Below the pieces are notes generated by a model. That model searched no databases, was not told where the DNA came from, and was given only the letters and a program-made list of their open reading frames with translations. Positions 13,092-37,680 of a DNA stretch of 41,161 nucleotides are shown here, piece by piece. The stretch covers positions 1-41,161 of the forward strand of contig JAJAZD010000163.1 in NCBI GenBank assembly GCA_026785945.1. The letters run 5' to 3'. The stretch comes from Pseudonocardia sp. (GTDB lineage Bacteria; Actinomycetota; Actinomycetes; Mycobacteriales; Pseudonocardiaceae). The position numbers and the translations under genes were made by a program. Numbering within the stretch: the first letter of the stretch is position 1; each line of letters opens with the position of its first letter.

Positions 13092-13186
13092 GAATTCTCC
13101 ACCGTTCGTGAACGCGGGCTCCGGTCCGGGCGTAACAGCAGGTGGCGCAGTCACAGCGCCTGCCCTCGCCGAACCGGAGACACATC

Positions 13187-13829
13187 ATGCGTTCATCGCC
13201 CAACATCGGACTCAGCGCCCTCCTGGCCGGTGCACTCCTGGCCACGCCGCTCTCGGTCGCCGCCGCCACGGAGCCGCGGACTGGAGGTCGTCGGCCTCGT
13301 CGACGGAACCAGCCTCGTCGAGTTCCGCTCCGAGAACACCCGCGTCCGCGACAGCGACAAGATCACCGGTCTCGACGGGGACACCTCCCTCGTCGGCATC
13401 GACCACCGCGTGCAGGACGGCGAGCTCTACGGCGTCGGCAACTCCGGCGGCATCTACCGGATCGACGCCGACGAGGCCGAGGCCACGAAGATCGCCACGT
13501 TGACGATCCCGCTGAACGGCACCCACTTCGGCGTCGACCTCAACCCGGCCGCCAACGCGCTGCGCGTCATCAGCGACACCGGCCAGAACCTGCGCCAGCC
13601 CTTCGCCACCAGTCCCCTCGTCGCCACCGTGGCCGACACGCCCCTGACCAACCCGGCCACTCCCCCGGCGCAGGCGCCTGGCGCCCTCGGTGTGACCGGT
13701 GCGGCGTACACGAACAACGACCTGGACACCACGACGGGCACCACGCTGTTCGACATCATCCGGCAAACGGGTGGAGCCGCGGGTCTGACCGAACCGGTCG
13801 GGCAACGAGCTGCGGAGGACAGGGCGTGA
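13187..13829 (+). pseudogene. DUF4394 secreted protein, frameshifted and 3'-truncated
   Basis: ATG 13187 with GGAGA six bases upstream opens a signal peptide (LSALLAGALLATPLSVAAAT). After about 30 codons the family core continues in a different frame, from LEVVGLVDGTSLVEFRSEN at about 13282. That core reads DGDTSLVGIDHRVQDGELYG, DLNPAANALRVISDTGQNLR and GAAYTNNDLDTTTGTTLFDI. The shift lies between about 13268 and 13282. The protein then stops at 13829, where intact family members carry roughly 80-100 more residues. So there are two independent lesions. The last codons overlap the ribosome site and start of the NlpC/P60 gene. One lesion could be a sequencing error; both together suggest decay. 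Confidence 0.8.
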
Positions 13830-15613
13830 CGAAGAAGGATCGGCACCGCACCATCCGGCGTCCCTTGATCGTGGCGGTCGCCATCGGCGCGGCCACCCTC
13901 GCGGCGGTGCCGGCGGCGGCGGTCGTGGTGGCCCCGGTCGCGATGCGCACCAGCACCACACCCCCACGGGGTGACGGCCCGGGCCTCGGCCTCGTCGCCG
14001 GTCCGGCCGCCGTCACGGTCGGGGACCTCATCGGCGGGCTGCCGGGGTACGGCGGCGTCGCCGCGGACGTCCCGGTCACCGCCGACATCGAGGCGCTGAT
14101 CGCCCAGGCACTGGCGGCACCGACCCTGGCGTGGTCCACCTCCAACGCGCCGTCGCTCACCTCGGTCCTCGGCGGACCCGCGACGCCGATCCTGCCGGCG
14201 TCGACGACCCCCCAGCCGACCTTCCCGCTCTCGGGATCCCTCCGGTCGACCGTCCCGCTGTCGTCGCTCCCGACGGTCACCACCACGGCACAGCCCGGTA
14301 CGGCTGCCGCCGCGGCCATCGACTTCGCGCTCGCCCAGCGCGGGCTGCCCTACGTCTGGGGCGGCAACGGACCGTTGGAGGGGGACGCCGGCTTCGACTG
14401 CTCGGGGCTGACCACCGCGGCCTACGACCACGCAGGCATCTCGCTGCCCCGCACCGCGCACACCCAGTACTACGCGGGCCCACACGTCCCGGCCGGTGTC
14501 GACCTCGAGCCCGGCGACCTCGTGTTCTACGGCGTACCCCAGCGGGTGCACCACGTCGGGCTCTACATCGGCGACGGGCGCATGGTGAGCGCACCGACGT
14601 TCGGCAAGCCGGTGCGGCTGGCCTTCGTCCGCTACAACGGCGACGACTATCTCGGCGCCACCCGCCCGGCCGCGGGCCGCGACGCCCCGGAGCTGCTCGA
14701 ATCCCCCGACCTGCCCTTCGACGTGCCGCCGCTGCCGAAGGCGCCCGCCCCCACCGACAAGCCCGACCCCGTCGAGTTCCCGGCACCGCCGGTGCCCGAG
14801 CAGGAGGTGGCGGACATGGCTGGGGCGGACGGGGGCGCTCCGACCGCGCCCGATCCGGCGACAGCCGGCGCCGCGCAACCCCATCCGGCCGGTTCACCGA
14901 AACGTGTGATCGACGGCCCGCCCAGCGGCGACCGCCCAACCGGCACCCCGACGGACGAGCCGGCGCCCACCCCCGCTCCCGTCACGGCGACGCCGCCCGT
15001 AACGGCGAGCGTCCCGGATCCCGAGCCGTCGAAGTCCCCCGAGCCGGCACCGCCCGACCCGAAGTCCCCCGACCCGAAGTCCCCCGGGCCGACGTCATCC
15101 GAGCCGACGTCACCCGGGCCGACGTCGACCCGGCCGGCGGACGGCCCCACGGTGGCCGCGGCGCCCGAGCCGGAGGCGAACGAGAGCGAGTCCGAGGCCG
15201 CCGCGGACACCACCCGGGAACCGGCTCCCGAGCCGGACACCGGGGAGCCCCCCGTCCCGTCCCGCCTCACACTCCCGGGCGGGACGAACCTCGCCCTCTC
15301 ACGTGCCGAGCGGGGTGCGGACGGCCTGCCGCCCGGACGCTCCGGCGCGACCCTGAGCTGGCGTCCCGGCAAGGACGGTGCGTGGACCGCCGCGGTGCGC
15401 CTCCCGGACGGCACCGCCACCGCGGGCCTCTCCACCGGAGCCACGATCACGGTCACCGGTGCCGACGGCACGCGCCAGGCGCTGACCATCCGTGCCCGGC
15501 GCACCCTCGACCCGGCCGACGCGGCCGAGTCCGCACGCCGCGCCACCGGCGCCCCCCGACTCGTACTGCTGCTCCCCGACGGCGACGAGGTCCTGGTCGT
15601 CGTCGCGGAGTGA
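13826..15613 (+). CDS. Secreted NlpC/P60 peptidoglycan hydrolase with Pro-rich tail
   Basis: A 595-residue exported endopeptidase. A basic N-terminus and a hydrophobic segment (LIVAVAIGAATLAAVPAAAVVV) form a signal peptide or anchor. The NlpC/P60 domain lies around residues 160-280: RGLPYVWGGNGP, catalytic cysteine in FDCSGL, catalytic histidine in VHHVGLYIG. Next comes about 190 residues rich in Pro, Asp, Glu and Ser, with near repeats PDPKSP and PGPTS near 15055-15130. The last 120 residues form a beta-rich module resembling the C-terminal strands of a sortase but lacking the TLxTC cysteine (my inference). GTG 13826 follows GGAGG by seven bases and overlaps the previous stop. It probably cleaves peptide stems in the cell wall. 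Confidence 0.9.
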   Translation: MTKKDRHRTIRRPLIVAVAIGAATLAAVPAAAVVVAPVAMRTSTTPPRGDGPGLGLVAGPAAVTVGDLIGGLPGYGGVAADVPVTADIEALIAQALAAPTLAWSTSNAPSLTSVLGGPATPILPASTTPQPTFPLSGSLRSTVPLSSLPTVTTTAQPGTAAAAAIDFALAQRGLPYVWGGNGPLEGDAGFDCSGLTTAAYDHAGISLPRTAHTQYYAGPHVPAGVDLEPGDLVFYGVPQRVHHVGLYIGDGRMVSAPTFGKPVRLAFVRYNGDDYLGATRPAAGRDAPELLESPDLPFDVPPLPKAPAPTDKPDPVEFPAPPVPEQEVADMAGADGGAPTAPDPATAGAAQPHPAGSPKRVIDGPPSGDRPTGTPTDEPAPTPAPVTATPPVTASVPDPEPSKSPEPAPPDPKSPDPKSPGPTSSEPTSPGPTSTRPADGPTVAAAPEPEANESESEAAADTTREPAPEPDTGEPPVPSRLTLPGGTNLALSRAERGADGLPPGRSGATLSWRPGKDGAWTAAVRLPDGTATAGLSTGATITVTGADGTRQALTIRARRTLDPADAAESARRATGAPRLVLLLPDGDEVLVVVAE

Positions 15614-15649: not shown

Positions 15650-16009
15650 TCAGCGTCGGGGGAGGCCGAAACGGCGTCGGCGTACCGCGACCAGGAGCGC
15701 TTCGGCCCTGTCCTCCACCCGGACGTCCAGAACCGTGAGGTCGGCCGGGTCGGCTGTCCGGTCGGGCGCGGGGCGCGGGCGCAACGTCATCCACGACTCC
15801 ACCCAGAGCGCCTCCATGGCGTTCTCCCAGTTCAGCTCGACACCCAGCCGGGTCAGCGCGGCCCTCTCGTTCGCGCGCGACATCTCGTCCTCCAGTTCGA
15901 CGAGCCGACGCGACAGCACCGCGGCCCGCTCCCGGTCGCGCTCCCGCAACGCGTCGGCGGCTGCGGCGGCACCGGCGACGATCTCCTTGTAGCGGCGGGA
16001 CGCGCTCAC
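15650..16009 (-). CDS. Small coiled-coil protein, last gene of the FtsK-like operon
   Basis: A 119-residue protein of unknown family. Residues 1-55 are strongly helical and charged (REYKE-like start, then DALRERDRERAAVLSRRLVELEDEMS), suggesting a coiled coil. A Trp-containing middle (ELNWENAMEALWVESWMTLRP) and a short beta-like end (DLTVLDVRVEDRAEALLVAV) follow. Its GTG start at 16009 overlaps the stop of the large ATPase gene by four bases, so production is coupled to the motor. It has no signal peptide or membrane segment. A role as cytoplasmic partner or regulator of the ATPase is inferred from context only. Confidence 0.8.
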   Translation of the reverse strand: MSASRRYKEIVAGAAAAADALRERDRERAAVLSRRLVELEDEMSRANERAALTRLGVELNWENAMEALWVESWMTLRPRPAPDRTADPADLTVLDVRVEDRAEALLVAVRRRRFGLPRR

Positions 16010-18780
16010 GCCTGCTCCAGCGACGGAACGATGACCACCTCGGGAATCGTGTGCCGGGCGCGATCGAAGAACAACCCGCGACCCGGGCGGGGCGACCAGT
16101 TCAGGAGCATGCCGGGGGCGAGCGCGCCCAGCTCGGAACCCTGGACGTCCAGCGCCACCCATGCGCCCAGGTCGTCCACCGATGCGCTCAGGGTGAGCAG
16201 GGTGCGCAGCCGCTGCACACTGCGCCACCAACCGAGCACGTGCAGGCCGGTCTCCGGGCCGTGGCGCAGCAGCCGGCGCAGGGCCTCGGTGCCGTCGCGT
16301 TCCAGCACCGTGTCGGCGGCATCGGCGGCGTAGAGCACCACGACGGTCGGCCGACGGGGCGCACCCGCGAGCCGCGCCGTGACGTCCGCGGCGAGGGCCT
16401 CGATCCGCGCCCGGATCCCACCGAGGGCGACGACCTCCGGCGCGTGCCCGGCGCCGGTCATGAGATCGACCAACCACGCCGCCGGTTCCACCGCCTCCGC
16501 CACCAGCGGGGCGATCACGACGTCCACCGCGCCCGGCGCGAACTGCCCAGCCAGCGACCCGGCCGCGGAGCTGAGCACCCGCACCGCCTCCCGGCCCACC
16601 GCCGCGAGCACACCGAGGTTGCGTCCGGGTGCGGGCGGAAGGGCGACGGCGGCAGCACTGCCGGCCACGTCGATGCACTGCCCGATGAGCGCGCGGGCCA
16701 CGCCGTCGGTCGCCGGCGCCAGGTCCGCCACCAGCGCCGCCAGGGCGGGCGCCAGGCTGCCGTCGAACAGCCGGGGCTGGGCGCGACCGGCGTGGTGGGC
16801 CTCGAACAGGATGCGCTGCACCTCGTCCACCGAGCCTCGCGCGGTCGCGTTCGGGACGCGCACGATCTCGTTGCCGTGCCTGATCCCGGACTCGTGGTTG
16901 AGCACGGCGTGCCAGCGCGGCAGGTCGAGGGTGGCGTCGTTGAGGTCGGCGAGCACCCGGCGGGCGCGGGGCAGCGCGATGCGCAGCACGAACTGTTCGA
17001 AGATCGCCGGACGGCCCCAGAACGCCTCGATCCCGGACACGTCCTGGCTGGCCAGCACCAGGTGGATGCCCTGGGAGCGCCCGCGCCTCGAGACGTCCTC
17101 CAGCAGGATCAGGGCCGCCTTCGTCACCGCGTCGCGCTCGGAGAACAGGTACTGGAACTCGTCGATCACCGCGACGATCCGTGGCCACCGGCCGTGCGGG
17201 TCCGCCGCCCGCAGCTCCTCCAGCTTGGTCACCTCGTGGGCCTTCGCGGCGTCCGCGCGCCGGCGCATCTCGTCGGAGAGGAACTGCAGCAGGGCCAGCC
17301 CGAACTCGCGGTCGGTGTTGATGTTGACTCCGACGAGACGAGCGTGCGGCAACCACGTCCGGTCGCGGCGGCCGGGGGCGAATTGGGCGAACGACACCCC
17401 CTCCTTGAAGTCGAGCAGGTAGAACTCCAGCTCGTCGGGGTCGTACCGCGCGGCCATCGCGCTGATCATCGTGAGCAGCAGGTTGGTCTTGCCCGACCCG
17501 CTCGGCCCGCCGACCAACGCGTGCGGGGACCCGTCCGCGAGCGACATCTCCACCGGCAGCCCGTCCGAGAAACCCACGGGTGCGTGCAGCCCCGCCAGCG
17601 ACCGCGTCCGGCCCCACTGCTCGGGCGGGGGCAGCAGGTCGCGGAAGGCACCGATCCGTCCGCGCCAGTCCTCGTGCTCGGCGGCGATCGCGTGGCAGGC
17701 GCGGATGACGGCCGCGGGGGGCAGCGGCGCGTCCGGCTCGACGGTCACGTGCGGCCCGGTCATCGACGTCACCGCGACGGTGTCCGTGGCCCCCCCGCCC
17801 GACAGCCGGATGGTCTCCACGGTGGCCCCGACCGTCATCGGCACGTCGAGCAGGACCAACTGCACCCCGCACGCCGGGCCACCACGGGCCACCCGTTCCA
17901 GCTGCCGGTGGTCGTCCTCGCGCAACGCCGAGCGGTTGCCCATCAACACGGCGACGACCCACGGCTCGCTGCGCCCACCGGTGGCCTCGGCGAGCGCAGC
18001 CAGGGAGGGATGGCCGTCGACGAGGACCCGGGTATGGACCCGGCGGATCCTGTCCGACAGCTCCTCGAGCAGCTGCGGAAGGCGTCCCGGATCGTGCACG
18101 GTCAGCAGCCCGGTCCGGGTCAGGGGGTAGAGACCGGGCAACGCACCGGTGAACTGTCCGACGTCCCACACGTGCACGGCCACCATGCCCGGCCGGAAGT
18201 GGCTCACGACCCGCATCAGCAGGCTCTCCACCAGCGACTCGGCCCGGTCGCGGCTCTCGTGGGTCGAGGAGATCTGCAGGTGCGCCTCGTCGAGCAGCGG
18301 GACGGCCACGTCGAAGCCCGGCTCACCCTCCCCGATCCGGCCGGCTCCGATCCGCCACAGCGACGGCACCACGCCCGTCCCGTCGATCCGGCCGAACCGG
18401 CCCAGCCATTCCTCCGGTTCCCGGCCGGCGGAACCGGGGGCGGCGTCGGCGAGCAGCGCGGCGAGCTGGGGTGGTCCGGAGCGGAGCCACGGCGCGAACG
18501 CGGACGTGTGGTCGTCCGCGACCCGGCCGACGGGACCGGCGAGCTGCCGGTTGGCCAGCACCCCGGCCAGTGCGGGGTCGACACGGGCGGCGTCGAGTCC
18601 GTCGGTACGCAGCCACATCTCCACCATCGCCTCGGCGTGCGCGCGCACCGCGGCGTCGCGGGCGCCCTCCGCCGCGCCCAGTGCCTGCGAGACGGCGACG
18701 CACAGCTCGTCGAACGCCGAGGCGATGCCGAGGCGGCGCCGGTTGGGCCGCCGGTCGGGCTTGCGCAGGTCGGGTGCCAC
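16006..18780 (-). CDS. FtsK/SpoIIIE (EccC-like) multi-domain P-loop ATPase
   Basis: A 924-residue FtsK-HerA ATPase. The active domain has Walker A GGPSGSGKT (K431), Walker B IVAVIDEFQYLF (D540, E541) and a sensor stretch GIHLVLASQDVSG. Segments before it (about 270-312, PWVVAVLMGNRSAL to GVQLVLLDVP) and after it (about 808-852, PTVVVLYAADAADT to GLHVLGWW) look like further RecA-type cores without Walker A motifs. This recalls EccC of type VII secretion, which has tandem ATPase domains. No transmembrane helices and no FtsK gamma (DNA-binding) domain are visible, so it is not the divisome FtsK. GTG 18780 lies two bases after the previous stop. The substrate, DNA or protein, is unknown. Confidence 0.9.
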   Translation of the reverse strand: MAPDLRKPDRRPNRRRLGIASAFDELCVAVSQALGAAEGARDAAVRAHAEAMVEMWLRTDGLDAARVDPALAGVLANRQLAGPVGRVADDHTSAFAPWLRSGPPQLAALLADAAPGSAGREPEEWLGRFGRIDGTGVVPSLWRIGAGRIGEGEPGFDVAVPLLDEAHLQISSTHESRDRAESLVESLLMRVVSHFRPGMVAVHVWDVGQFTGALPGLYPLTRTGLLTVHDPGRLPQLLEELSDRIRRVHTRVLVDGHPSLAALAEATGGRSEPWVVAVLMGNRSALREDDHRQLERVARGGPACGVQLVLLDVPMTVGATVETIRLSGGGATDTVAVTSMTGPHVTVEPDAPLPPAAVIRACHAIAAEHEDWRGRIGAFRDLLPPPEQWGRTRSLAGLHAPVGFSDGLPVEMSLADGSPHALVGGPSGSGKTNLLLTMISAMAARYDPDELEFYLLDFKEGVSFAQFAPGRRDRTWLPHARLVGVNINTDREFGLALLQFLSDEMRRRADAAKAHEVTKLEELRAADPHGRWPRIVAVIDEFQYLFSERDAVTKAALILLEDVSRRGRSQGIHLVLASQDVSGIEAFWGRPAIFEQFVLRIALPRARRVLADLNDATLDLPRWHAVLNHESGIRHGNEIVRVPNATARGSVDEVQRILFEAHHAGRAQPRLFDGSLAPALAALVADLAPATDGVARALIGQCIDVAGSAAAVALPPAPGRNLGVLAAVGREAVRVLSSAAGSLAGQFAPGAVDVVIAPLVAEAVEPAAWLVDLMTGAGHAPEVVALGGIRARIEALAADVTARLAGAPRRPTVVVLYAADAADTVLERDGTEALRRLLRHGPETGLHVLGWWRSVQRLRTLLTLSASVDDLGAWVALDVQGSELGALAPGMLLNWSPRPGRGLFFDRARHTIPEVVIVPSLEQA

Positions 18781-18782
18781 GC

Positions 18783-19061
18783 CTACAGCCGCGCGTCGAT
18801 GTCGGCGACGGCGGTGGCGCCGCCGCTGATCAGCCCGAGGCCGCGGTCCAGCTCCTCAGCGGCACGGCGCAGCTCGACCGGCACCAGCGGGGCGCCGTGC
18901 TGCTCCCCCAGCCCGGCGAGCAGCGCCACCGCCTCGGCGATACGGGCGCGCGCCACCCCGGCGTGGCGGTAGGCGCCACCGAGCTGTTCGGCCACCCCGA
19001 CCAGCTCGGCACGGATGTCCCCGACGCCACTCACGTCGTGCCACACCGGTTCGGCGCCCAC
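18783..19061 (-). CDS. Small two-helix protein of the FtsK-like operon (B)
   Basis: A 92-residue protein of unknown family with two predicted amphipathic helices separated by a Gly/Pro turn: DIRAELVGVAEQLGGAYRHAG, then QHGAPLVPVELRRAAEELDRG. Size and hairpin form recall WXG100/Esx proteins, but no WxG motif is present. The start is uncertain: GTG 19061 gives the full length, while GTG 19034 (VSGVGDIRAEL) is a plausible shorter start, and neither has a clear ribosome site. It ends two bases before the ATPase start, so co-expression is near certain. Confidence 0.75.
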   Translation of the reverse strand: MGAEPVWHDVSGVGDIRAELVGVAEQLGGAYRHAGVARARIAEAVALLAGLGEQHGAPLVPVELRRAAEELDRGLGLISGGATAVADIDARL

Positions 19062-19080
19062 GGTTCGCTCGCGAGGTCGT

Positions 19081-19341
19081 TCACAGCCGGTTCGCGACCC
19101 CTTCGGAGGCCTGGATCGCGGCGGCGACGGCCTGCTGCACCTCGGTGATGCTGCCGACCGCCTGCGCGAGCAGCCCGTTGGCCTCGGAGACGTCGGCCTG
19201 CGCGCTGCCCTCGGTGACGCGCAGCAACGCGCCTTGCGCCTGCTCCAGCGAGGAGTGGGCCTGCTGCAGCGCGCCTATGCTCTCCGAGGCCTTGTCGTTG
19301 GCCATCGCGATCCCGGCCCGGACCTCGTCGATACTCGCCAT
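19081..19341 (-). CDS. Small helical protein of the FtsK-like operon (A)
   Basis: An 86-residue, Ala- and Gln-rich protein (MASIDEVRAGIAMANDKASE, then QQAHSSLEQAQGALLR and ITEVQQAVAAAIQASEG). It is predicted as a two-helix hairpin with a TEGSAQAD turn, the size of WXG100 proteins but with no tryptophan. ATG 19341 has AAGGGGAG upstream, the best ribosome site in the operon, and the gene is first in the transcript. Pairing with the 92-residue neighbour as a heterodimer, in the manner of EsxA/EsxB, is a hypothesis from size, order and fold only. Confidence 0.8.
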   Translation of the reverse strand: MASIDEVRAGIAMANDKASESIGALQQAHSSLEQAQGALLRVTEGSAQADVSEANGLLAQAVGSITEVQQAVAAAIQASEGVANRL

Positions 19342-19468
19342 GCCCGAACTCCCCTTGCCGTGCCCCGGATCTTTCCTGGTGAAATCTAGCGGTGTCGGCG
19401 GGCGGCCTCACGTCCCGTCCAGTTCACCTCACCCGCCCGGGGATCGCCACATCAACGGGCCCCCACGA

Positions 19469-35931: not shown

Positions 35932-36249
35932 TCAGGGCGGGGTGAGGGGACGCGGGCGGAGGCTGCCCGGGCGTGGCCACAGGCGGAGCCGGACCACCGC
36001 CACCACCTGCGCGGGGCCCAGGGTGCGGGAGTCCGTCGAGCCGTCGAGGTTGTCGCCCAGCACCCACCACCCGCTGTCGCGGCGGTACGCCGCCCGCTTC
36101 ACCGAGAGCTGACCCGGCCGCGCCTGCCACCGCACGAGCACGACGTCACCGGGCCGTGCAACGGCGCCGAACCGGGCCAGCACGACGTCGGAGTCCCGCA
36201 ACACGGGCGACATCGACGGACCCCGGACCGCCACCCTGCGCCAACGCAC
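35932..36249 (-). CDS. sodX: Nickel-type superoxide dismutase maturation protease (S26 family)
   Basis: A 105-residue signal-peptidase-like protease with the catalytic serine S12 in GPSMSP and general-base lysine K51 in VKRAAYR, plus the WVLGDNLDGSTDSR box of S26 peptidases. Its small size and lack of a membrane helix match SodX, which removes the short propeptide of nickel SOD so that His1 is exposed. The target gene sodN is divergent, 84 bp away. It starts at GTG 36249. Confidence 0.92.
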   Translation of the reverse strand: MRWRRVAVRGPSMSPVLRDSDVVLARFGAVARPGDVVLVRWQARPGQLSVKRAAYRRDSGWWVLGDNLDGSTDSRTLGPAQVVAVVRLRLWPRPGSLRPRPLTPP

Positions 36250-36333
36250 ACCCGCTCCTCGTCACCCTGCCCCGCCCTGGGCCCGGGAGTAGTGTCGAAC
36301 TCGCCAGAAAAGATCATCATCCAGGGAGGACCC

Positions 36334-36750
36334 ATGGGGATTCTGTCCCGCATTCTCCGCCCGCAGCTCGAGGCCACCGCGCACTGCGACCTCCCCTGCG
36401 GCGTGTACGACCCGGCCCAGGCCCGCATCGAGGCCGAGTCGGTCAAGGCCATCCAGGAGAAGTACCAGGCCAACTCCGACCCGGAGTTCCGCACCCGGGC
36501 CATCGACATCAAGGAGCAGCGGTCCGATCTGGTCAAGCACCACCTGTGGGTGCTGTGGACCGACTACTTCAAGCCGCCCCACTTCGAGAAGTACCCGGAG
36601 CTGCACGAGCTGTTCAACAACGCGACCAAGAAGGCCGGCGGGGGGGCGGGCGGGGCGAAGTCGTCCATGGACCCGGCCACCGGCCAGGAGCTCCTCGACT
36701 ACATCACCCAGATCGACAAGATCTTCTGGGAGACCAAGGCCGCTGCCTGA
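36334..36750 (+). CDS. sodN: Nickel superoxide dismutase
   Basis: A 138-residue NiSOD that dismutates superoxide in the cytoplasm. The nickel hook HCDLPCGVYDP begins at residue 17; after removal of the 16-residue propeptide it gives His1, Cys2, Cys6 and Tyr9, the ligands and catalytic residues. The four-helix body follows (ARIEAESVKAIQEKYQ, LVKHHLWVLWTDYFKP). A short Gly-rich loop (AGGGAGGAKSS) near residue 110 may be slightly longer than in Streptomyces enzymes. ATG 36334 follows GGGAGGA. In Streptomyces expression depends on nickel; a similar control is likely here but no operator was identified. Confidence 0.96.
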   Translation: MGILSRILRPQLEATAHCDLPCGVYDPAQARIEAESVKAIQEKYQANSDPEFRTRAIDIKEQRSDLVKHHLWVLWTDYFKPPHFEKYPELHELFNNATKKAGGGAGGAKSSMDPATGQELLDYITQIDKIFWETKAAA

Positions 36751-37200: not shown

Positions 37201-37470
37201 GTGGCGGATGTCTGGGTCGCAGTGCTCATGATCAGTGAGCGAGTGGCTCAGAAGATCATCCAGCGACACGGTATCGAGGTTGCCGAGCTACGCGATGCAG
37301 TCGTCTGCGTTGAAGGGCTCCCCGGTCGGTGGGACGACGACCCGGAGCGTGGCCGCCGCGCACTCCTCGACGTGGTCATCCGCAACCGGACTGCCACCTT
37401 TGTGCTCTACCCCCTGGAGCATCCGATGGGGGATGCTTGGAACCTGGGGAGCGTGTACTTCGCTGCCTGA
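37201..37470 (+). CDS. Small protein, possible BrnT-like toxin
   Basis: An 89-residue protein of uncertain family. After an N-terminal VAVLMISERVAQKIIQRHGIE helix comes ELRDAV, a Gly/Trp segment (GLPGRWDDDPERGRRALLDVVI) and two strand-like stretches (RTATFVLYPLEH, WNLGSVYFAA). This order is reminiscent of BrnT/RelE-fold ribonucleases, but no family match is certain. GTG 37201 has GGAGG six bases upstream. The next small ORF follows after 15 bp with its own GGGAGGG. The pair is less GC-rich than its surroundings and sits near an integrase remnant. Confidence 0.65.
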   Translation: MADVWVAVLMISERVAQKIIQRHGIEVAELRDAVVCVEGLPGRWDDDPERGRRALLDVVIRNRTATFVLYPLEHPMGDAWNLGSVYFAA

Positions 37471-37485
37471 GACGGGAGGGCTGCG

Positions 37486-37680
37486 ATGAACGACGGTGAC
37501 TTCTACGAGGACGACGAGCCGCTGGAGAAGATCCAGGCGATCCGCCGACGGGTGCCGGACTTCGTTACCCGTCGACCGGCCAGCCGTGGAGTGACCTTGT
37601 ATCTTGGGCCATCGACGGCGACGGGCAAGTGGGAACAAGCGGCCGAACCGGTGACACTTGGGGCCGCTGCATGCCCCTGA
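37486..37680 (+). CDS. Small acidic-start protein, possible antitoxin partner
   Basis: A 64-residue protein beginning MNDGDFYEDDEPLEKIQAIR, then a basic centre (RRRVPDFVTRRPASRG) and TLYLGPS. I do not recognise the family with certainty; the DFYEDDEP start recalls small actinobacterial proteins encoded behind toxin-like genes. ATG 37486 follows GGGAGGG. Its 3' end overlaps the DUF6941 start by ten bases. Function is inferred only from its pairing with the preceding ORF. Confidence 0.6.
   Translation: MNDGDFYEDDEPLEKIQAIRRRVPDFVTRRPASRGVTLYLGPSTATGKWEQAAEPVTLGAAACP

Follow-up and report, generated by a model that had tools for sequence, protein, structure and literature searches.

The type VII secretion systems (T7SS) are sorted into types T7SSa to T7SSj in the 2024 survey of Garrett, Higginson and Palmer, and in the part of that survey drawn on here all of them have a membrane-bound FtsK-related ATPase together with a WXG100 protein (PMC11217815). 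Types T7SSc to T7SSj are described there as having a membrane-bound ATPase of four predicted NTPase domains and a WXG100 protein, to which most add a ubiquitin-like protein. Excerpts of three further papers add that hydrophobic residues at the C-terminus of EsxB dock in a pocket on the third of EccC's ATPase domains (PMC6954902), that WXG100 pairs encoded bicistronically form heterodimers and single WXG100 proteins homodimers (PMC3935865), and that a 2016 study of ESX evolution, whose sample included nine species of nine further orders, among them Pseudonocardiales, regarded ESX as descended from a WXG-FtsK cluster (PMC4791881). The locus described here is a four-gene operon (A, B, an ATPase gene and D) of Pseudonocardia sp., assembly GCA_026785945.1, on contig JAJAZD010000163.1. 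The window, meaning the whole stretch of 41,161 nucleotides that was analysed, is the whole of contig C163, part of a 4.46 Mb draft genome. The operon is confirmed as real, and it is conserved. With slightly better than even confidence, we read it as encoding an ATP-driven protein-handling motor on the EccC plan, similar to the motor of a T7SS and operating without the EccC membrane anchor or an ESX membrane complex. It comprises the following features:

19081–19341, minus strand: gene A, 86 amino acids, ATG start, predicted helical hairpin with a C-terminal Arg-Leu
18783–19061, minus strand: gene B, paralog of A by profile comparison, 92 amino acids as called, 83 from a likelier start at 19034
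16006–18780, minus strand: ATPase gene, 924 amino acids, GTG start, three predicted RecA-like domains with one intact site
15650–16009, minus strand: gene D, 119 amino acids, GTG start, coiled-coil-like, without a hydrophobic segment
19349–19356, minus strand: ribosome-binding site of gene A, AAGGGGAG, strong, read in the sequence
19383–19388, minus strand: -10-like hexamer TAGATT, 41 nucleotides (nt) 5' of gene A, by consensus resemblance only

The four minus-strand open reading frames exist in the order A, B, ATPase, D, as an earlier note on this DNA had them. The spacings given there are those measured, with 19 nt between A and B, 2 nt between B and the ATPase gene and a 4-nt overlap between the ATPase gene and D, except that the first figure is not firm. 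Gene B encodes 81–87 amino acids in all 54 other loci with a recognised B, and therefore its start is probably the GTG at 19034, which unsettles the 19-nt spacing. The same note allowed one good ribosome site, at the first gene; the site at A is indeed strong, but gene D, too, is preceded by a GGAG, 5 nt from its GTG start. TA-rich boxes resembling TAGATT are found 5' of A in some other loci as well, and a count of words in the region 5' of A gave a -10-like box, ribosome-site words, GC-rich words and nothing else. Gene A is present as a single copy in its own genome. Genes outside annotated records were called with a simple purpose-made caller, by which small genes can be missed or wrongly started.

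The locus counts refer to 82 loci, made up of the best 80 of the 504 relatives from the named scan, the window and one more locus. Genera among the 80 include Pseudonocardia, Saccharothrix, Lentzea, Kutzneria, Saccharopolyspora, Actinopolyspora, Amycolatopsis, Prauserella, Actinokineospora, Kibdelosporangium, Micromonospora and Salinispora, as well as others. In 78 of the 82 loci gene A lies upstream of the ATPase gene in the same orientation; the four without it are three at contig edges and L112. Of these 78 loci, 76 have gene D, and in 73 of the 76 it directly adjoins or overlaps the stop codon of the ATPase gene. Order and strand are thus kept across genera far above chance expectation. 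The earlier note had named absence of the small proteins from other loci as one outcome that would count against it; A is kept, and B is kept less well, being unrecognised in 11 of 30 loci of the genus and without room in 7 of the 78 loci, while six more of the 78 have room and no recognised B. The genes flanking the four differ from genus to genus (neighbours were clustered and mostly not identified), and the four genes are therefore taken as the unit.

Within the genus, 31 of 36 genomes, including its own, gave a full-length ATPase match. One genome (G030) carries the ATPase in three pieces and another (G029) holds fragments; no match was found in the remaining three (G006, G021 and G026). 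In all 30 genus loci D stands beside the ATPase gene; 29 of them also have A, and B was recognised (E < 1e-10) in 19; L019 stops at a contig edge and the stretch of L013 holds only part of A. In one Pseudonocardia genome (L048:11044–11968) an insertion between B and the ATPase gene holds a TetR-like regulator and part of a further gene, both recognised on looking at the sequence. Across the family Pseudonocardiaceae, which includes many antibiotic producers, the ATPase is present (E <= 1e-60) in 161 of 200 genomes, which represent 35 of the 46 genera, with two matches in just 2 of the 161, and in a phylum-wide draw of 396 genomes (E <= 1e-30) it was found in its own genome and four others. Descent of the ATPase follows genus lines: a tree made with a quick method accounts for its 12 genus or family labels with 11 changes, the fewest possible, with Amycolatopsis and Saccharopolyspora each enclosing other genera. 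The window's ATPase groups with named Pseudonocardia species, and with P. kunmingensis at a Shimodaira-Hasegawa-like approximate likelihood ratio test (SH-aLRT) value of 97. The four genes are inherited together. The loci on two contigs labelled Rhodococcus rhodnii and Melainabacteria (L119 and L122) either fall with Kibdelosporangium or are 61% identical to the window; contamination or mislabelling is the probable cause.

The ATPase was divided as follows, from AlphaFold2 (AF2) prediction, profile comparison and motif reading:

18442–18750, minus strand: N-terminal helical region, residues 11–113, from AF2 secondary structure
17731–18363, minus strand: N domain, residues 140–350, RecA-like without a P-loop, from AF2 and profile comparison
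16861–17610, minus strand: catalytic FtsK/EccC core, residues 391–640, from Pfam and the core tree
17485–17508, minus strand: Walker A, GPSGSGKT, residues 425–432, sequence motif
17152–17175, minus strand: Walker B, VAVIDEFQ, residues 536–543, sequence motif
16027–16695, minus strand: C domain, residues 696–918, alpha/beta without a P-loop, with a conserved GLHVLGWWRS segment

Pfam recognised the FtsK core alone (residues 391–580; FtsK/SpoIIIE family, E 1.5e-19), and the FtsK gamma domain, said earlier to be lacking, had no Pfam match. The best NCBIfam model is EccCa (E 4.9e-27); its 95 bits lie below the curated EccCa cut-off of 509 bits, which places the protein outside the EccC orthologous group. 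The AF2 model (mean predicted local distance difference test score, pLDDT, of 87; 40 rows) contains the N-terminal helical region followed by three alpha/beta domains. In a Foldseek search its top match was 4nh0, the EccC cytoplasmic domain of Thermomonospora curvata (E 2.2e-32 over 944 columns), and EccC or EssC structures filled ranks 1–8, with FtsK appearing from rank 9 at about 1e-14. Profile comparison related the core to the N domain (probability 94, E 1.4e-7) and the N domain to the C domain (probability 62, E 7.4e-5), and an alike segment is found in all three: GGPACGVQLVLLDV, RGRSQGIHLVLASQD and HGPETGLHVLGWWRS. With tandem FtsK-like domains and EccC as nearest structure, the predictions support an EccC-type architecture and the EccC-like three-domain ATPase first proposed from the letters.

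A single intact site had also been claimed, and all 76 copies longer than 850 amino acids contain one P-loop and a DEFQ-type Walker B (six of 82 copies, at 850 amino acids or shorter, were left out). The window's ATPase is predicted to lack membrane helices, again in line with the earlier claim, as none is seen in the AF2 model and the top 19-residue hydropathy is 1.56. The same measure reaches 1.6 in 40 of the 76 copies, in windows that are taken to be buried strands. In an unrooted tree of 36 catalytic cores the wider family (23 rows, support 98/94), EccC first domains (10 rows, 100/99) and FtsK-type proteins (three rows, 96/93) form three separate groups. The rows, selected with a core model built from the family itself, include two phage FtsK-type rows and one Streptomyces EccC-type row; EccC second and third domains, a Caballeronia row of residues 156–320 and a second, Walker-less copy from genome G049 (L035) were left out, and G191 was missed by the motif filter. 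The ATPase does not group with divisome FtsK, a placement that the earlier note had named among the outcomes refuting its reading. Divisome FtsK/SpoIIIE was accordingly rejected as an identity, given the separate clade, no gamma match and no membrane N-terminus seen; the best FtsK_SpoIIIE match of the same genome lies on another contig (C140). The second G049 copy (L182:8079–11766) lacks Walker A, stands beside a D-like protein of its own with hydrophobic segments and is, judging by its sequence, a probable inactive paralog.

Gene A is predicted to encode the hairpin that had been suspected from its size (AF2 mean pLDDT 91, helices at residues 4–42 and 49–85). Profiles of A and B match over 84 columns (probability 95, E 1.8e-8), which shows the two to be paralogs at the sequence level. 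The C-terminal residue is leucine in 71 of 75 A and 54 of 55 B proteins, usually as Arg-Leu, and a G[STQ] turn is found in 74 of 75 A proteins (three of 78, of 126, 74 and 113 amino acids as called, were left out of the A counts). The WxG motif is absent, as first reported, from all 75 A and all 55 B proteins, and YxxxD/E within the last 30 residues was found in 0 of 75 and 1 of 55. The most frequent weak Pfam matches of A are to DUF6244 (11 of 49 members) and WXG100 (6 of 49, best E 0.008), and the most frequent match of B is likewise DUF6244 (5 of 32). DUF6244 (PF19757) is a family without assigned function, and its best E-values are just 6.5e-4 for A and 2.2e-3 for B; a search with the PF19757 model gave no match in any of eight genomes, and was uninformative since the controls were likewise without signal. 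Compared with the WXG100 proteins EsxA and EsxB, A and B are alike in size, in their two predicted helices, in a turn near residue 45 and in forming a bicistronic paralog pair. They differ in having no W-x-G, next to no YxxxD/E and no profile match, and carry a near-fixed C-terminal leucine instead. A true WXG100 identity for A was rejected on the WxG count, the E-value of 0.008 and the absent profile match.

The D protein is without a hydrophobic segment (threshold 1.6) in all 68 copies of its cluster (D119). The loci of Micromonosporaceae depart from this layout, with a protein of 291–425 amino acids in place of B and one of about 220 amino acids, containing hydrophobic segments, in place of D. 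By hydropathy such segments are present in 11 of 11 of these D counterparts (one of 12, of 145 amino acids and at a contig edge, was left out). They are counterparts by position only, the profile probability being 33 for D and 8 for B against the N-terminus of the second gene. The 119-residue protein is predicted to be soluble in the window; the membrane helices that hydropathy suggests for its positional counterparts could not be seen from there. Neighbours of the ATPase also have hydrophobic segments in G058, G047, Rhodococcus pseudokoreensis, Deinococcus, G430 and at the second G049 copy, and in two of these (Deinococcus and G430) the neighbour is encoded upstream of the ATPase gene. No D-like protein with a membrane segment was identified in the Caballeronia, Helicobacter or G366 loci.

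Full-length relatives of the ATPase with the same layout occur on plasmids of Rhodococcus, Caballeronia, Helicobacter and Deinococcus and in several actinobacterial genomes. In G058 and G047 the row consists of a TPR or DnaJ-TPR protein, Hsp70, a hairpin, the ATPase and a D-like protein whose C-terminal end includes a hydrophobic segment, and in G235, G366 and R. pseudokoreensis Hsp70, DnaJ-TPR and GrpE genes stand beside the ATPase gene. Hsp70 was identified by Pfam in G058, G047, G235 and G366. The TPR protein matched DnaJ in G058 and G235, fell below the Pfam cut-off in G366 and had no Pfam DnaJ match in G047, while GrpE was over the cut-off in G366 and just below it in G235; the R. pseudokoreensis genes were named from the record annotation and a look at the sequence. 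W-x-D replaces W-x-G in the hairpins of Caballeronia, Helicobacter, Deinococcus, Rhodococcus AH-ZY2, G131, G430, G210, G199 and G071. Pfam WXG100 was matched at E 0.0051 or better by five of eight hairpins adjoining distant relatives, namely those of Caballeronia (3.6e-7, the sole one over the cut-off), G131 (1.6e-5), Helicobacter (4.6e-5), Deinococcus (2.7e-4) and Rhodococcus AH-ZY2 (0.0051). On the Helicobacter plasmid (L039:5355–8605) a WXG100-like protein, a Colicin-DNase/WHH protein of long helices with the nuclease domain at its end, an SMI1/KNR4 gene, a small protein and the ATPase are encoded in a row; by its gene content the row is a T7SS-like effector cassette, here in a bacterium that is Gram-negative. 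In G210 (L180:4642–11715) JAB and ThiF genes adjoin the ATPase relative and its W-x-D hairpin. A protein of 272 amino acids on the R. pseudokoreensis plasmid (L036:11208–12026), matched by neither Pfam nor PHROG, begins with helices, ends in an unassigned domain and lies beside an 86-residue hairpin in an effector-like layout.

On the features compared here, the operon does not belong to T7SSa–j. The membrane-bound EccC/EssC-type ATPase is lacking by the AF2 model and hydropathy given above, A is not a WXG100-family partner, and no further membrane components (EccB/D/E, EssA/B, EsaA or equivalents) were found in the locus, where the flanking genes were clustered and part of them identified. 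With EccC and EssC of T7SSa and T7SSb (4nh0) it shares predicted RecA-like domains in tandem, the best structural and sequence match and small helical partners encoded adjacent; the operon ATPase differs in showing no transmembrane helix, in its single P-loop and in a catalytic core that falls in a separate clade. The likeness to T7SSc–T7SSj consists of the FtsK-related ATPase and small hairpin core, along with the WXG100 and effector-like neighbours of distant relatives; of the features listed for those types in the portion of the survey used, none was found in the operon. The earlier description of a compact module away from ESX genes stands: in the same genome the only EccB found is on contig C198, EccC-type genes are on C233 and C79 (open frames of 1,377 and 1,472 against 924 amino acids for the operon ATPase) and WXG100 genes on C233 and C144. 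No description of the operon was found in the open-access literature, a search that most subscription journals lie outside. In the available portions of two surveys of conflict systems, FtsK and Hsp70 or GrpE components are treated in other settings (PMC7159879, PMC8195603).

In the motor reading, A and B would form an antiparallel hairpin dimer like EsxA/EsxB, and their near-invariant C-terminal leucine would dock on the C-terminal pseudo-ATPase domain. The proposal of docking follows from the way in which paralogous hairpins (or A alone), C-terminal leucines, a pseudo-ATPase C domain and one catalytic domain repeat the logic of EccC. The central site would hydrolyse ATP in a ring that may pull, remodel or deliver the hairpin pair or its bound cargo, with D as a constant coiled-coil partner of the ATPase, presumably soluble in Pseudonocardiaceae and a membrane tether in relatives. 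Several observations weigh against this reading. Template modelling scores (TM-scores) of the ATPase model against 4nh0 are just 0.39–0.42, so that domain placement differs from EccC, and profile comparison of the core with the C domain was not significant (probability 1.0, E 0.05). All 75 A proteins are without both WxG and YxxxD/E, A gave no significant match to profiles of WXG100-like partners (E 0.07, one column), and a Foldseek search with A returned no match at E <= 0.001, with Esx proteins making up five of the top 50; hairpin folds, moreover, resemble many unrelated proteins. An independent profile test of A against the hairpins of the Hsp70 branch was not significant, and three of the eight hairpins beside distant relatives (R. 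pseudokoreensis, G430 and G210) did not match WXG100. Seven loci have no room for B, and no channel is encoded in the operon. Finally, a ClpC-like gene (about 850 amino acids) is divergent near gene A in nine Micromonosporaceae loci; in one of these, L057:12991–15543, Pfam identified Clp_N, UVR and ClpB_D2-small. This neighbour lowered our confidence in the motor slightly and raised that in a chaperone link to a similar degree.

Of the options in the earlier note, DNA transport is less likely than protein handling, and defence is not supported. As a DNA translocase, the ATPase would pump double-stranded DNA in segregation or hyphal transfer, in the manner of FtsK or TraB, and the helical proteins A, B and D would be its accessories. 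The FtsK/SpoIIIE membership of the core (Pfam E 1.5e-19), the FtsK motors next after EccC in the structure search and the presence of the gene in most genera of the family fit such a role, which we consider unlikely because the gamma domain has no match, EccC and EssC outrank FtsK structurally, the clade is separate from the three FtsK-type rows, and the partners are paralogous hairpins or, in relatives, WXG100 proteins and a nuclease effector. Chaperone genes beside some relatives would be compatible with remodelling that takes place wholly in the cytosol, in which a segregase unconnected with export would extract or remodel clients delivered by chaperones. The Hsp70, TPR/DnaJ and GrpE genes adjoining the sister-branch ATPase, the ClpC-like gene divergent from A and the lack of any membrane helix found in the window's ATPase or D all agree with it. 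The neighbours of the operon change between genera, however, so that no chaperone gene is a constant part, and the C-terminus of the D-like proteins from G058, G047 and Rhodococcus contains a hydrophobic segment; this role is improbable in our estimate.

Alternatively, the ATPase could be an accessory motor of the resident ESX system, feeding A and B to EccB/EccD encoded elsewhere. EccB is found in 197 of 200 family genomes, and the genome itself has EccB, two EccC-type genes and WXG100 genes on other contigs; EccB being near-universal in the family, its co-occurrence with the operon carries no information. EccB was unmatched in seven of ten genomes with a distant ATPase relative (G058, G045, G366, G210, G235, G430 and G191) and matched in three (G047, G049 and G131), and the ATPase lacks the membrane helices through which EccC joins its complex, which makes an accessory role quite unlikely. 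An anti-phage or conflict module is very unlikely. The PADLOC models mad8 (6.7e-20) and SspH (3.7e-18) match the ATPase core, and some distant relatives are plasmid-borne, one beside a nuclease-type effector gene. These matches are limited to the shared FtsK core, though, and A, B and D match no model, so that PADLOC on the operon proteins found none of the companion genes of MADS or Ssp defence; nor was a variable effector seen inside the four-gene unit of the window's family. Descent along genus lines, two matches in only 2 of 161 positive genomes and three relatives in a scan of viral contigs likewise speak against the defence function suggested earlier. A phage gene was also rejected on that scan.

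The motor reading may extend further, into a deep branch of EccC-like motors with paired hairpins and no ESX-type membrane complex, although we hold this wider version only tentatively and at less than even confidence. The actinomycete form would be a wholly soluble housekeeping four-gene machine that reads a C-terminal leucine, and other branches would be coupled to Hsp70, to WXG100 proteins together with a nuclease effector (also on Gram-negative plasmids) or to JAB/ThiF. If this is true, the core unit would consist of motor and hairpin pair, and the T7SS translocons would have been added around it later. How a T7SS motor recognises and moves folded hairpins, and why a membrane complex is needed, is still being worked out, and a compact soluble relative, purifiable as four proteins, would allow motor-substrate recognition to be studied without a large membrane complex. 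A conserved gene set without assigned function in 35 of 46 genera of a family is also of interest by itself.

Other genes of the window include a gene for a 595-residue NlpC/P60 protein with a long Pro-rich tail (13826–15613), convergent with the operon. Adjoining it, a DUF4394 gene (13142–13829) looks broken, as the domain match covers profile positions 2–147 of 230 and the signal-peptide-like start reads in a different frame; this looks like an assembly error or a pseudogene. Two small open reading frames at 37201–37680, without a Pfam match, lie in the stretch of the window with the lowest GC content. At 35932–36750 a nickel superoxide dismutase gene (Sod_Ni, 1.4e-44) is divergent from a small S26-type peptidase gene, and the two form a usual gene pair.

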